DNA of 64,000 bases from Solidesulfovibrio magneticus RS-1 (GTDB lineage Bacteria > Desulfobacterota > Desulfovibrionia > Desulfovibrionales > Desulfovibrionaceae). The notes beneath the pieces were generated by a model, which had not been told where the DNA came from, made no database searches, and saw only the letters and a program-made list of their open reading frames with translations. Shown here piece after piece: positions 35,559 through 41,372 of the stretch. The stretch is taken from contig NC_012796.1 of assembly GCF_000010665.1 (NCBI RefSeq), positions 3,439,501 to 3,503,500 on the forward strand, given 5' to 3'. A program made the translations under genes and the position numbers. Each line of letters starts with the position of its first letter. Position 1 is the stretch's first letter.

Positions 35559-37328
35559 TCAGGCCGCCCAGGACCCCGACGGGGCCAGACAGGCGTCGAT
35601 CTCCCGGGTCTTTTCCAGAATGCGGCCCCGGATGGCCTTGAATGCCGTCAGTTCCTTGACGCCATAGCGTTTTTTGGTCTGCACCAGCCCAGCCAAGTCC
35701 ATGATCTCGTTGTAGAGATAGGGCATGTAGAGCGGATCGTGGCGGGTAAAGAACTGGATCTGGGAGAGCAGGTCCTTGATCTCCTGCTGGTGCTTGTCGG
35801 CCTTGCGCATGAGCTTTTCCAGCCGCCGGGAAGCGTTTTTGAGCGACGTCGCCCAGGACGCGGCCTTGGGCGCGAAGATGGGCCGCACGCGCGGACTGGC
35901 CGCCCGGGCCAGGGCCGAGAGAAACACGTCCTTGGCCGCGCCCCGGCTGGCGAAAAGCTCCCCCGAGGCCAGATCGGCCGGCCCCAAGTTGACCGCACCG
36001 TCGATGACCACGCCGCCGCCGTAGAGGTTGAAAAACCCGGCCGAGGAGGCGGCGATGTCCTTTTCGATGTCGCGCTTGGCAGCCAAAAAACCCATGTGGG
36101 TGTAGATGGTCTGGCCGTGCAGATTATTGAGCTTCACGTCGTCGCGGGGATTGTAGGTGTGCACCCAGACGGCGTTGTGGTGGCCGTCCACGTGGGTGCG
36201 TTCGCCCTGCCAGGACAGGTCGCAGCCGACGAACACGAAGCGTTCGGCCCCGGCCCAGCCCAGCAGGCGTTCCAACGTCACCGACACGTTGCCGCCGGCG
36301 TCCAGCACCAGTTCCTGGTCCTTGAGCACGTAGGTGCCGATGCCGCCCTGGGTCCACAGCGGGATGCGCGGCCCGGGATAACGGGCCACCACCGCCGGGT
36401 CCATCTTGGTGGAATAGACAAAGGGGATATCGGCCGCAAACGACAGGTCGCGCAAATTATCCAGGCTTTGCATCATGTTGTCGTTAAAATCGATGGCCAG
36501 ACACAGGTCAGGCTTGATGCCCAGCCGCTCCAGGGCCGGCAGGGTCTGGAGGGCGGCGGCGTAAAAGCCCTTGTCGCGATGCTCCCGCAGCACCGGCGCG
36601 AACCCGGCCAGAGACGGACCCGCCCCAAGCAGCACGGCCGTCAGTCCCTTGGCCATACCGGCCATGCGGGCCAGACTGCCTTCGTCCATGGCCCGGGAAT
36701 AATTGCGCAGTTCGTTGCCGACCATGACTTCCTGCTTGTGGCGCAGCGTGGTGAGCTCCACCGACAGGCTTTCCATCTTGGCTTTGACCAGCGCCCCCAG
36801 GCGCGGATATTCCGGCCCTATCTGCTGGCAGGCCAGATCGTTTCGCAGCCAGACCCGGGAAAACAGGAAGCTCACGTCAAAATTTTGGATGGCCAGCTCA
36901 ATGTCGGCCGCGCGGGGCGGCACGAAACGCAGCTTGCCATGGCGCAGATAAGGCCGGTAATCGGTCTGGCCCAGGCAAGCCAGGAGCATCTCCGGCCGGG
37001 GTTCGGCCACCAGCACCTTGTGGGAATCCGGCGTGCCGGTCAGCACGTGGTTGAGGCCATAACCGATGCCCACGCCGACAATGATGGTTCCCGCGCCCTC
37101 AAGCTGCTCCTTGGGCCGCCAGTCGCGGTAGAAAAACGGCGGTGGCAGCTTCTCGAACAGCCCCACGCCGTCGTCCATGCGCCAATCCACGATGCCCGAG
37201 GCGTTGCGGTGCAGCCGCTCGTGGACAATGGCCGGATCGGGATTTTCCTCGGCCAGCCAGCGCCCGACCGGGTCGCCGGTCTCGGCCAGATACGCCAGGT
37301 TGTCGGCAAGGTACTTGTTGATCTCCAT
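35559..37328 (-). CDS. Maf-like (DUF115) motility-associated glycosyltransferase-family protein
   Basis: A 589-residue protein. The central region (about 200-440) carries the DUF115/MptE-like fold: AVLLGAGPSLAGFAPVLREH, PDLCLAIDFNDN, FVFVGCDLSW and the TYNPRDDVKLNNLHG segment. The N-terminal third (TIIVGVGIGYGLNHVL) resembles the nucleotide-binding portion of the motility-associated factor family. In other bacteria these proteins put nonulosonic acids on flagellin. No flagellin gene is nearby, so the acceptor is unknown. ATG 37328 has AAGGAAGGGG upstream. Confidence 0.8.
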   Translation of the reverse strand: MEINKYLADNLAYLAETGDPVGRWLAEENPDPAIVHERLHRNASGIVDWRMDDGVGLFEKLPPPFFYRDWRPKEQLEGAGTIIVGVGIGYGLNHVLTGTPDSHKVLVAEPRPEMLLACLGQTDYRPYLRHGKLRFVPPRAADIELAIQNFDVSFLFSRVWLRNDLACQQIGPEYPRLGALVKAKMESLSVELTTLRHKQEVMVGNELRNYSRAMDEGSLARMAGMAKGLTAVLLGAGPSLAGFAPVLREHRDKGFYAAALQTLPALERLGIKPDLCLAIDFNDNMMQSLDNLRDLSFAADIPFVYSTKMDPAVVARYPGPRIPLWTQGGIGTYVLKDQELVLDAGGNVSVTLERLLGWAGAERFVFVGCDLSWQGERTHVDGHHNAVWVHTYNPRDDVKLNNLHGQTIYTHMGFLAAKRDIEKDIAASSAGFFNLYGGGVVIDGAVNLGPADLASGELFASRGAAKDVFLSALARAASPRVRPIFAPKAASWATSLKNASRRLEKLMRKADKHQQEIKDLLSQIQFFTRHDPLYMPYLYNEIMDLAGLVQTKKRYGVKELTAFKAIRGRILEKTREIDACLAPSGSWAA

Positions 37329-37454
37329 GGCCCCTTCCTTGGTTGAACTGACCAAGCCCAAGCAAATTTCCTGCCACTCTTGCCGGTTGGCGGTTTTTTG
37401 CCTACCACGGACCCTGCCCGGACGAATGCGGGCCAAATTTCCGAGAGGCGCGCC

Positions 37455-39776
37455 ATGATCCACGATTCCGTGTTGTCCCTGGTCGGCAAGACACCGCTGG
37501 TGCGGATGCGCCGGGTTTGCCCCAATCCGCGCGTGACCATCTGCGCCAAGATCGAGTCGCGAAACCCCGGCGGCTCCATCAAGGACCGGGTGGCCCTGGC
37601 CATGATCGAAGCGGCCGAACGCTCGGGGGAACTCACCTCCGGGCGCACGGTCATCGAGGCCACCTCGGGCAACACCGGCATCGGCCTGGCCATGGTCTGC
37701 GCCGTCAAGGGCTACCCGCTAAAGCTGCTCATGCCGGCCTCGGCCTCGGAGGAACGCAAGCGCATCATGCGTGCCTACGGCGCGGAAATCGTGCTCACCC
37801 CGGGCAACCGGGGCACCGATGGGGCCATCGAGGAAGCCTACCGCCTGGCCCGGGAAGAACCCGACCGCTACGTGCTCATGGACCAGTTCAACAACCCGGC
37901 CAGCATCGAAGCCCACTACGCGGCCACGGCCGTGGAGATCTTCGAATCCACGGGCGGGGCCGTCACCCACGTGGTGGCCGCCCTGGGCACCTCGGGCACG
38001 GCCATGGGGCTGGTCAAGAAATTGAAAGAACTCAACCCCGCCATCACCGTGGCGGCGGTGGAGCCCAGGCCCGGCCATAAGATCCAGGGCCTTAAAAACA
38101 TGCAGGAGTCCTATCCTCCGGGCATATTTAACAAGCACGCCCTGGACGCCATCGTGCCGGTAGAGGACGAGGACGCCTTTGCCATGGCTCGGCGTCTGGC
38201 CCGGGACGAAGGCATCCTGGCCGGCATGAGCGGCGGCGCGGCCATGGCGGCGGCGGCGCGGCTGGCCGGGGAACTGGCCGAGGGGCTCATCGTGGTCATC
38301 CTGGCCGACAGCGGCGAGCGCTACCTGTCCACCACCCTTTTTGCCGCGCCCGAGAAAAAAGGCGTGGCGCTCACCAGCGTCGGCCAGCCCGATCCGGTCC
38401 ATCTCGACCCGGCCGCGGCCGCGCCCGGGCTTTTCACCTTCGGCCCGCCCCTGCCCGAACCCGGCGACCTGGACGCCTGGCGGCGCATCGTCACCCTGGA
38501 CGTGCTGCGGCGCACCCTTTCCCGCTCCGGCGGCCGGCCGACCCTGGCCGTGGGCCTGGCCGACCTGGACGACCGCTGCCTGGATGCCTCGCGGGCGGCC
38601 GGACGCAAGTGCCGGGAGTATGCTGCCGAAGCCCGGGAGCAGGTCGCCGCCCTGGCCGAAAGCCTGGGCGTCGCCGACGCGGTCTTTCCCCTAGCCGGCG
38701 AGGCCATGGACGAGGCCATGGCCCTGGCCCGAAAGCTTATGGACAAGGGCCTGGCCTACGAGAAGCTGCGCAGCGTCTACTTCGACGTGGCCCGGGACAA
38801 GGCCTACGGCGGCCTGCTCGGCCTGGACATGACCAAGCTGTGCCTGGGCAAGACCGTGGATCTCGACTCCTACGCCAAGGACCATCCCCGGGATTTCACG
38901 CTTTTAAAGCGCGTGAGCCTCAAGGATCTCAAGGCCGGCGACGTCTGGGCCACGGCCTGGGGCAACGTGCGGCCGAGCTGGTTTCTCCAGATGGCCTCGG
39001 CGGCCGTGCGCGCCCTGCCGGCCGTGACGGTGGTGGCCACCGACGAGGACAAGACCTTCCCACATATCGAGAACCTGCGCGCCGTCTGGGCTGGCGGGGC
39101 CGGGCTGGCCCCGGCCGTCTGGCTGGTCGGCGGGCGCATCTGCGGCCGCGAAGGGGCCGAGGCCGTGCCGACCCTGGCCGATCTGCTTGGCTACGGCGTC
39201 CATCCCCTGACCGTGCGGGCCTGGCTGCTCTCCACGAGCTACCACAAGCCCCTTTGCGCCGCGCCCGAGGCCCTGGCCATGTGGGAACGCAACCGGGCGC
39301 GCATCCAGGAACTGGCCGCCGGCCTGACCCTGGCCGCCGGAGAGGGACAACCCTCGGGCGCGGCCCAGGCCGAGGCCGAAGGATTGGAAGCGGCCCTGGA
39401 GGCCGCCCTGGCCGAAGACCTGTCCGTGGCCCAGTTCTGGCCGGCTCTTTTCGCCTTCGCCCGCCAGGCCAACGCCGGACTGGCCGCAGGAACGCTTGGC
39501 GGCGCCGACGCCGCCCGCCATCTGGCCGCCCTGGCCGCCGCCGACGCCGCCCTTGGGCTGCTCGACCCGGCCGGGCTGCCGCTGTCGCCCCCCCACTGGC
39601 CGGCCGAGGCGGCGCGGCTCATCGAAGCCCGAGCCCAGGCCCGGGCGGCCAAGGACTTCACCCGGGCCGACGCCCTGCGCCGCGACATCGAGGCCATGGG
39701 GCTGCGCCTGGAAGACGCTCCCGGGGGGGCGCGCCTTTTCGCTGCCCGGCCGTCTCCGGGCCGGGGCAAGCCGTGA
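37455..39776 (+). CDS. cysK: Cysteine synthase fused to a degenerate cysteinyl-tRNA synthetase
   Basis: 773 residues. Residues 1-310 are a complete O-acetylserine sulfhydrylase: ESRNPGGSIKDRV (PLP Lys43), EATSGNTGIGLAM, ALGTSGTAMG, GMSGGAAMAA. Residues about 325-773 follow cysteinyl-tRNA synthetase order (ALARKLMDKGLAYEKLRSVY, LDSYAKDHPRDFTLLKR, LGYGVHPLTVRAWLLSTSYH, and a DALR-like tail with KDFTRADALRRDIEAMGL). The HIGH motif, the zinc-binding cysteines (here NVRPSWFLQM) and KMSKS (here GRICGREGAEA) are gone, so it cannot charge tRNA by the usual chemistry. ATG 37455 follows GAGAGG. The fused half may bind tRNA, CysRS or regulate synthesis. It is coupled by a GTGA overlap to the next gene. 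Confidence 0.9.
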   Translation: MIHDSVLSLVGKTPLVRMRRVCPNPRVTICAKIESRNPGGSIKDRVALAMIEAAERSGELTSGRTVIEATSGNTGIGLAMVCAVKGYPLKLLMPASASEERKRIMRAYGAEIVLTPGNRGTDGAIEEAYRLAREEPDRYVLMDQFNNPASIEAHYAATAVEIFESTGGAVTHVVAALGTSGTAMGLVKKLKELNPAITVAAVEPRPGHKIQGLKNMQESYPPGIFNKHALDAIVPVEDEDAFAMARRLARDEGILAGMSGGAAMAAAARLAGELAEGLIVVILADSGERYLSTTLFAAPEKKGVALTSVGQPDPVHLDPAAAAPGLFTFGPPLPEPGDLDAWRRIVTLDVLRRTLSRSGGRPTLAVGLADLDDRCLDASRAAGRKCREYAAEAREQVAALAESLGVADAVFPLAGEAMDEAMALARKLMDKGLAYEKLRSVYFDVARDKAYGGLLGLDMTKLCLGKTVDLDSYAKDHPRDFTLLKRVSLKDLKAGDVWATAWGNVRPSWFLQMASAAVRALPAVTVVATDEDKTFPHIENLRAVWAGGAGLAPAVWLVGGRICGREGAEAVPTLADLLGYGVHPLTVRAWLLSTSYHKPLCAAPEALAMWERNRARIQELAAGLTLAAGEGQPSGAAQAEAEGLEAALEAALAEDLSVAQFWPALFAFARQANAGLAAGTLGGADAARHLAALAAADAALGLLDPAGLPLSPPHWPAEAARLIEARAQARAAKDFTRADALRRDIEAMGLRLEDAPGGARLFAARPSPGRGKP

Positions 39777-40594
39777 GCGACTGTCTGGCCACGGGATTCG
39801 CCGGCTGCGACCGGGCGGCCGATCCAGACATTTTCGTGCGCTGCCTGCGCTATCTCGCCGCCGCCCCGGGGATGCGATCCATCAAGGACGAAAGCCTGGC
39901 CTGGCTGGGCCTTGCCCCCGGCGACACCGCCCTGGACCTGGGCTGCGGCCTGGGCGGGGAAGCGACGGCCATGGCCGGGAGCGTCGCCCCGTCCGGTTTG
40001 GCCGTGGGCCTGGACGCCAGCCGGGTGATGCTGGCCCGGGCGGCCAATGCAGCCGGTCAAGCCGCCGTGCGTCCGGTCTTCGTGGCCGGCGACGGCGCTC
40101 ACCTGCCCTTTGTCGACGGAGCCTTCGCCGGCTGCCGGGTGGAGCGCACCCTGCAACATGTGCCCGTCCCTGGGGCTGTGCTGGCCGAGATGGCGCGGGT
40201 GACGCGCCCGGGCGGGGCAGTCGTTGCCGTGGAGCCGGACTGGGGCACGTTCGTGGTGGATTCCAGCCATACGGCTGTGGCCCGGCGGTTGGCGGAATTT
40301 TGGTGCGACAGCTTCCGCCGCGGCTGGATCGGCCGAGAACTCGGCCGCTTGCTGTCCGAGGCCGGCCTGAAGGAAATCGAGGTGATCGGGCGGTCGCTTG
40401 TGCTGCGCGAACTGGCCGCCGCCGAGGCGGTCTACAGCCTGTCCGACACGGCCGACCGAGCCGTGGCCGCCGGGGCGCTGCCCCAGGGCGCGACGGGGTC
40501 GTTTCTGACGGAACTGCGCCGCCGCGACGCGGCCGGCACGTTTTTTTCGAGCCTCACCTTCTTCCTGGCCCGGGGCCGCAAGCCCCGGACCTGA
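39773..40594 (+). CDS. SAM-dependent methyltransferase
   Basis: A 273-residue class I methyltransferase. It has DTALDLGCGLGGEATAM (SAM-binding motif I), VGLDASRVML (motif II), VAGDGAHLPFVDGAF and RVTRPGGAVVAVEPDW (post II-III). The GTG start overlaps the cysK stop (GTGA), so the two are coupled. It is similar in layout to UbiE/arsenite-type methyltransferases, but the substrate is unknown. Confidence 0.82.
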   Translation: MSDCLATGFAGCDRAADPDIFVRCLRYLAAAPGMRSIKDESLAWLGLAPGDTALDLGCGLGGEATAMAGSVAPSGLAVGLDASRVMLARAANAAGQAAVRPVFVAGDGAHLPFVDGAFAGCRVERTLQHVPVPGAVLAEMARVTRPGGAVVAVEPDWGTFVVDSSHTAVARRLAEFWCDSFRRGWIGRELGRLLSEAGLKEIEVIGRSLVLRELAAAEAVYSLSDTADRAVAAGALPQGATGSFLTELRRRDAAGTFFSSLTFFLARGRKPRT

Positions 40595-40613
40595 CGCCGG
40601 CCCGGCCGCCCGG

Positions 40614-41372
40614 CTATTTGGGCAAGGGCGCGGCCACCAGCAAAATCCATTTCTCGCCAAAGGTCTTTTCCGCAAAAGCCTTGCGAAAAGCGGCCATGCC
40701 GGCCGGCTCGGACAGCATCAGCTCATGGCTGCCCCGGCCCGGAGTGGCGTGGGCGAAGCGGACCTTGCCGGCGGCGTCGCGGTAAAGGACGCCGACGTGG
40801 TAGTAATAGAGGCGGCCTTTGATCTCTTTGCTCAGCGCCGCGTAAGCGACCTCGCCCGGAGCCAACTTCGGCAGCACGGCGGCCCAGGCGGCCGCGTCGT
40901 GCAGGGGAAAGCCGCGAAACCGGGCCGCGTCCACAGCCTCGGGAGCCGGCGGCAGGCCCGGGCCCGGCACAAGCAGCCGACGGGGCAGGCCGTCGGTGAC
41001 GTTTAAGATCAGGTCGTAGCCGAAGTCCCAGTCTTCGCCGGCCGCCGCGCCCGGGCCGGAATCGCTCTTGCGGTCGCGGCGCATGGCGTCCAGGGGCAGG
41101 GGGCGGCCCAGGATGCCCCGGGAGGCCGTGACCACGAAGCCGCTGCAATTGAGCCCCCGATCCGGGAAGGTTCTGGACTGGTCGGCAAACAGGGTATGAC
41201 GGCCGGCGGGGTCGTCCACGCCGTCGTCGCGGTAGGGCGTGCCGAGAAGCGGGGTCACGGCGTCGGACGGCGCGGCGGCCAAGGCGGCGTCAAAGATGCA
41301 ACAGACGGCCAAAGCGACGGCCAGGGCGACCAGGAGCGTTTGACCGCGCGGCAAAAGCCGCGTAACATCCAT
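40614..41372 (-). CDS. Secreted NlpC/P60-like protein of unknown substrate
   Basis: A 252-residue protein with a signal peptide (TLLVALAVALAVCCIFDAALAAAPS). LNCSGFVVTASRGILG looks like the catalytic Cys segment of papain-like NlpC/P60 hydrolases, and YYYHVGVLYRD could supply the His. The spacing is wider than usual, so the assignment is tentative. ATG 41372 was chosen because a longer frame would overlap the divergent gene's ribosome site. Confidence 0.55.
   Translation of the reverse strand: MDVTRLLPRGQTLLVALAVALAVCCIFDAALAAAPSDAVTPLLGTPYRDDGVDDPAGRHTLFADQSRTFPDRGLNCSGFVVTASRGILGRPLPLDAMRRDRKSDSGPGAAAGEDWDFGYDLILNVTDGLPRRLLVPGPGLPPAPEAVDAARFRGFPLHDAAAWAAVLPKLAPGEVAYAALSKEIKGRLYYYHVGVLYRDAAGKVRFAHATPGRGSHELMLSEPAGMAAFRKAFAEKTFGEKWILLVAAPLPK

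Follow-up and report, generated by a model that had tools for sequence, protein, structure and literature searches.

The 64,000-nucleotide stretch of the Solidesulfovibrio magneticus RS-1 genome analyzed here (the window) encodes a cysteine synthase fused to a relative of cysteinyl-tRNA synthetase (CysRS), and this CysRS-like arm, an accessory domain derived from a synthetase and attached to a biosynthetic enzyme, is unusual in keeping the part that reads the genetic code. We tentatively propose, with a likelihood just short of even, that the arm is a non-charging docking site for tRNA-Cys and that its occupancy by tRNA switches or boosts cysteine synthesis. The features of the locus are listed in Table 1.

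Table 1. Coordinates of the fusion gene and associated features in the window
Feature	Position	Strand	Remarks
Promoter-like block TTGCCG-N17-TACCAC	37380..37408	+	Putative function; leader conservation
Fusion gene, cysteine synthase and CysRS-like arm	37455..39776	+	773 aa
Cysteine synthase (CysK/CysM, PALP) domain	37455..38351	+	Residues 1-299
PLP lysine K43 codon	37581-37583	+	
CysRS-like arm	38367..39746	+	Residues 305-764; CysRS fold complete, catalytic motifs absent
Place of zinc ligand C28 and of HIGH	38439..38477	+	Now F329 and DLDA (338-341)
Fusion-specific conserved CP-domain loop	38847..38942	+	Residues 465-496
Places of zinc ligands C209, H234, and E238	38991..39077	+	Now M513, I538, and L541
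Anticodon-reading set	39630..39716	+	R726, R730, F735, D739, R742, D754
Class I methyltransferase gene	39773..40594	+	Overlaps fusion; not a conserved partner

The fusion gene and its cysteine synthase domain

An ATG at position 37455 opens an uninterrupted frame of 773 residues (37455-39776, forward strand) in which Pfam profiles detect PALP at residues 8-285 (E 5.8e-72), the CysRS catalytic domain tRNA-synt_1e at residues 342-544 (E 6.3e-23), and the anticodon domain CysS_C at residues 715-754 (E 7.2e-5). The fusion is not a product of chance, since the protein is conserved across 80 loci with 41-97% identity. The original prediction of a CysK-type synthase joined to a CysRS relative is thus borne out, with the right coordinates, by domains, fold, and conservation. 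Our search found no description of the fusion in the open-access literature, a scope outside of which most subscription papers fall. DVU0663 of D. vulgaris is a putative orthologue of the fusion.

The synthase domain of the window protein has an intact PLP lysine (K43) and intact SGNTG and GTSGT motifs, and K43, S71-T74, G178, T179, and G181 are invariant in 79/79 fusions of an alignment from which rows more than 85% identical or shorter than 700 residues had been removed (an earlier alignment set comprised 102 rows after removal of identical rows and of one locus with a frame break, L041). From these intact catalytic residues, it seems likely that the fusion is a working PLP-dependent cysteine synthase. 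The protein passes the cut-off of the cysKM subfamily model TIGR01136 (360.1 bits; cut-off 344.15) and stays below those of the cysK equivalog TIGR01139 (322.9 versus 350.95 bits) and the cysM equivalog TIGR01138 (354.7 versus 394.2 bits); judged by these profiles, the domain is a cysteine synthase assignable to neither the cysK nor the cysM named type. Its nearest solved structure is E. coli CysM 2v03 (Z 43.4, rmsd 1.6, 294 residues aligned), and M. tuberculosis CysM 3dki_A matches similarly (Z 43.0, rmsd 1.6, 296 aligned). Other CysK-type genes are present in the same genome, which is 100% complete by its record.

A CysRS fold without a catalytic site

The arm finds its top PDB match by sequence in E. 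coli CysRS (1li5, E 2e-26), and when the arm was modeled by itself, AlphaFold reached a mean pLDDT of 94.2 and a pTM of 0.93. Structure prediction against CysRS, which had been suggested as a check of the original prediction, placed this model nearest to CysRS structures: it aligns with 1u0b_B (Z 41.4, rmsd 6.1, 432 residues) and 8qhp_A (Z 41.4, rmsd 2.5, 389 residues), the first 14 of 50 listed matches are CysRS and MshC with Z scores of 36.4-41.4, and MetRS follows next among the listed matches at Z 27.3. Alignment to the separate CysRS of the same genome confirmed that the window arm has lost all three motifs, as had been anticipated: DLDA stands in place of HIGH, the KMSKS block falls into a gap, and the zinc ligands C28, C209, H234, and E238 (E. 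coli numbering) are replaced by F, M, I, and L. Against the CysRS equivalog TIGR00435, the window protein scores about 114-117 bits and so stays under the cut-off of 340, compared to 535 bits for the separate CysRS. By sequence and predicted fold, the arm is a CysRS relative without the catalytic site.

Anticodon-reading residues and a fusion-specific loop

In the 1u0b complex, as set out in the pertinent part of its description, G34 of tRNA-Cys is hydrogen-bonded by Arg427 and Asp436 of E. coli CysRS, stacks on Trp432, and takes part in a water network that includes Asp436 and Arg423 (PMC12684709). The window protein carries R, R, F, and D at these four published positions, and its whole anticodon-reading set of R726, R730, F735, D739, R742, and D754 corresponds to E. 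coli R423, R427, W432, D436, R439, and D451; R439 and D451 joined the set after their invariance had been seen, unlike the four published contacts. Two of the 164 fusions surveyed have no C-terminal residues, and counts for the G34-reading residues therefore cover 162 fusions. R423, D436, and R439 are each kept in 162/162, position 432 is aromatic in 162/162, R427 is kept in 152/162 (with K in 8 and Q in 2), and D451 in 161/161, its place being absent from one more fusion.

Retention was assessed in 141 non-redundant fusions (more than 85% identical sequences removed) over the 160 columns in which true CysRS reach a conservation of 90% or more. Among the 63 non-redundant fusions without the zinc site, these columns have a mean retention of 0.385, compared to 0.97 for the five anticodon columns (permutation p 4e-4 for random sets of five) and 0.02 for 12 catalytic columns; the aromatic position 432 was judged apart because true CysRS vary between F, W, and Y there. 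By segment, retention amounts to 0.84 in the anticodon domain, 0.54 in the CP domain, 0.35 in the helical bundle, which serves as a structural baseline, and 0.22-0.31 in the rest. This pattern indicates that anticodon reading is kept under strong selection in fusion arms. The selective conservation of the anticodon readers favors binding of tRNA-Cys by the arm and, with it, the binding part of the earlier idea that the arm could sense this tRNA.

The fusions also have conserved positions of their own. At 11 positions, the fusions are 93% invariant or more while CysRS have a different residue or none, and 8 of these positions fall within the CP domain at residues 467-495, within a loop (residues 465-496) of the consensus GKTVDLxxYxKxNPxDFTLLKRxSLxDLKxG. 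Given the low pLDDT of residues 467-474 in the arm model, we infer that this is a mobile new functional loop. A new local function, to which the loop points, would also suit an arm that is a leftover structural or small-molecule module and that stabilizes the enzyme, oligomerizes it, or binds a partner, as would the better retention of the CP domain compared to the rest of the catalytic part. The C-terminal residues would then be kept for folding, and R423, R427, D436, R439, and D451 might indeed be retained for the folding of a small C-terminal domain. We consider this explanation unlikely, since the kept residues include the G34 contacts reported in the cited part of PMC12684709, while other positions in the same C-terminal helices vary freely.

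Distribution, descent, and the separate CysRS

By hand count, a full-length fusion is present in 120/296 genomes of the phylum (a sample of genomes at least 90% complete) and in 59/119 Desulfovibrionaceae genomes; beyond the 120, contig ends truncate two fusions and a frame break interrupts one. In one single-contig genome, an apparent frameshift divides the fusion gene (L273, G129:C1:2736760-2739056) at a point where the catalytic part of the arm gives way to the helical part. All fusions fall on one side of a branch both in a CysRS-domain tree of 71 rows (SH-aLRT 99) and in a second domain tree of 22 rows (SH-aLRT 96), in which the sister synthases, from other families of the phylum, are unfused. 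A single origin of the fusion is therefore apparent from these trees. Spread beyond the phylum is possible in two cases, L089 by its Pirellulales label and L077 by its tree placement in Myxococcota. DsrJ, which marks the sulfite-reduction complex, occurs in 106/123 fusion genomes and in 39/173 others (raw counts, uncorrected for shared descent).

The window genome has a separate intact CysRS, and a hand count among 89 genomes examined found one in 41/41 fusion genomes (38 full-length, one of a divergent type in G209, and two in two pieces in G029 and G179). The metagenome-assembled genome (MAG) G405, which is labeled Pirellulales, has the fusion L089 as the sole protein that exceeds the CysRS cut-off (351.6 bits), with DLGL in place of HIGH and KVSRA in place of KMSKS. 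Some genomes encode further CysRS-like proteins. L260 (G258:C20) is a CysRS paralogue of 410 residues whose match ends before the anticodon domain and which is perhaps of the CysRS* type reported for Desulfobacterales, while L254 and L255 (G135 and G171), each a second CysRS-like frame, comprise 742 and 729 residues and extend about 260 residues beyond the CysRS match in genomes that also have the fusion and a normal CysRS.

The invariable presence of a separate CysRS in the 41 fusion genomes, together with the same conservation pattern that argues for tRNA binding, would also be compatible with a scaffold or channel in which the arm holds tRNA-Cys so that cysteine forms beside this tRNA and the true CysRS and free cysteine stays low, with the activity of the synthase uncontrolled. 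A remark in the relevant passage of one study that cysteine above 1 mM affects the growth of D. vulgaris (data not shown there) fits a need for low free cysteine (PMC3431258). Such channeling appears improbable to us: the arm and CysRS would share their anticodon contacts, and handing over the tRNA would require its release. We prefer regulation because a tRNA docked on the arm could not at once engage CysRS via these contacts and because HisZ, the nearest documented analogue, is regulatory according to the passages that describe it (PMC9437257).

Graded loss of catalytic motifs across fusions

We surveyed the catalytic motifs in 164 distinct fusions, after removal of rows below 800 bits and identical rows, and in 30 true CysRS of the phylum. 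While the four zinc ligands, HxGH, and KMSKS are present in 30/30 true CysRS, KMSKS is kept in none of the 164 fusions and HxGH in a single one (L139), which has RTSKA in place of KMSKS. KMSRS occurs in 18/164 fusions, and all zinc ligands are kept in 64/164. The ATP-site motifs are hence broken in every fusion surveyed. By record titles, many deeper lineages (Desulfobulbales, Desulfobacterales, and Thermodesulfobacteria) retain the zinc/cysteine site, which is wholly lost in Desulfovibrionales, the group of the window as judged from its nearest relatives; on the CysRS-domain tree, the class without zinc ligands requires one change. The losses are thus graded across the fusions, with the window protein at the most decayed end. 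The expectation that orthologues would share the losses holds insofar as no fusion keeps both HxGH and KMSKS, but the full set of losses in the window is not general to the fusions: many retain the zinc site, and L134 from a near-canonical clade even passes the CysRS cut-off of TIGR00435 (441 versus 340 bits).

It is conceivable that some fusions, not including that of the window, still activate or load cysteine as a second CysRS. The retained zinc ligands, the KMSRS motifs, and the score of L134 would agree with such residual synthetase function, and so would the lone fusion of G405, which has no other clear CysRS match, although this MAG is perhaps incomplete. We nevertheless find this very unlikely, as no fusion combines HxGH with KMSKS, L134 itself has HLGI and KMSRS at these places, and all three motifs are gone in the window protein. 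Formation of cysteine directly on an acylated tRNA (e.g., a serine derivative) brought by the arm is barely plausible despite the kept tRNA-Cys contacts and the precedent of SepRS-SepCysS in methanogens (described in part of PMC5424206), since the synthase closely matches free-substrate cysteine synthases (2v03, Z 43.4) and a true CysRS is present.

Genomic neighborhood and leader

The GTG start of the methyltransferase gene (39773) overlaps the stop codon of the fusion (39774-39776) in a GTGA sequence, as had been noted from the sequence, but the suggested role of this gene in the system did not hold up. In a phmmer search with the encoded protein, the gene adjoined the fusion in only 3/120 loci, all of them in Solidesulfovibrio. 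No operon is conserved across the fusion lineages in the 120 loci compared, of which some are cut by contig ends and some may come from genomes counted twice. Just upstream of the fusion on the same strand, DsrP is encoded in 12/120 loci and dTMP kinase in 13/120, and an MptE-like gene lies near the fusion in 21/120. In the 12 loci with DsrP, including L100, L102, and L111, the fusion directly follows genes of dsrMKJOP, the membrane complex of dissimilatory sulfite reduction (dsr genes confirmed at NCBIfam equivalog level, one representative each). In the window, a divergent gene (35559-37328, reverse strand) lies 126 bp from the fusion, and its relative in L066 is MptE-like (PF01973). Regulation via proximity to cysE was considered and rejected: the best cysE-like match of the genome, at 172 bits under the cut-off of 210.65, adjoins another CysK paralogue (C2:1907297) and not the fusion.

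The leader of the fusion gene is conserved in 9 aligned Solidesulfovibrio sequences with invariant TTGCC and TACCAC, and a terminator-like match overlaps the promoter-like block formed by these elements (37380-37408). A sigma-70 scan found nothing, and a sigma-54 promoter in the leader was rejected by eye since its spacing is inconsistent between species. An Rfam search of positions 36900-41000 gave no match up to E 1.

Proposed control of cysteine synthesis by tRNA-Cys

According to the regulatory reading that we prefer, the arm would no longer activate or load cysteine and would dock tRNA-Cys via its GCA anticodon. A tRNA-Cys bound to the arm, most plausibly an uncharged one, would switch or boost cysteine synthesis, and the loop at residues 465-496 is a candidate for relaying the signal to the synthase or for touching the 3' end of the tRNA. 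In a sulfide-rich sulfate reducer, cysteine supply would then follow translational demand instead of the sulfide level. Sulfide as a respiratory product cannot report the demand for cysteine, whereas tRNA-Cys could. The zinc pocket kept in deeper lineages points to an ancestral arm that responded to cysteine as well; in these lineages, the pocket could add free cysteine as an input that was lost in the Desulfovibrionales line. That a whole branch of sulfate reducers controls cysteine synthesis by direct and anticodon-specific binding of tRNA-Cys to the synthase, as a bacterial, covalent, and RNA-gated device that arose when a duplicated synthetase lost its chemistry and went on reading the code, is a possibility that we rate somewhat below even.

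Sulfate reducers dominate sulfur cycling, and the mechanism, if true, would explain how cysteine supply could be set in cells whose respiratory product is sulfide. The role of a gene that may easily pass for a plain cysteine synthase in annotation thereby becomes directly testable.

Comparison with known systems

The synthase part resembles the O-acetylserine sulfhydrylases CysM and CysK in its catalytic domain, with the CysM structures 2v03 and 3dki closest, but these enzymes lack the arm, and the synthases of the fusions form a clade of their own, whose sisters in related families are not fused. The arm, in turn, shares with E. coli CysRS (1u0b/1li5) the full fold and the residues that contact G34, while the window arm lacks HIGH, KMSKS, and the zinc/cysteine site.

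If binding of tRNA-Cys alters cysteine output, the fusion would parallel T-box and GCN2 control at the enzyme level. In GCN2, which is a eukaryotic kinase, a HisRS-like domain without synthetase activity senses uncharged tRNA within the same polypeptide as the enzyme.

Dead synthetase paralogues that regulate metabolism are already known, and HisZ is the best case. This HisRS paralogue is a regulatory subunit of HisG without adenylation activity, according to the section of the source devoted to it, and thus likewise a synthetase relative that takes part in making its cognate amino acid (PMC9437257). The fusion resembles HisZ in that its catalytic motifs are lost, a true synthetase is encoded elsewhere, and the arm is joined to a biosynthetic enzyme of the same amino acid. 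In contrast, HisZ is described in that section as a separate subunit that mediates histidine feedback, whereas the arm of the fusion is covalently attached and keeps the anticodon reader. CysRS paralogues with a new role are listed in the same source and include CysRS* of Desulfobacterales and MshC (PMC9437257). In the passage that describes it, CysRS* lacks an anticodon domain, unlike the window fusion with its CysS_C at residues 715-754, and MshC structures align only up to residue 400 of the 469 in our arm model. As far as these descriptions go, CysRS* and MshC keep the chemistry of the synthetase, and the fusion arm is the reverse case in which the anticodon reader was kept and the chemistry was lost.
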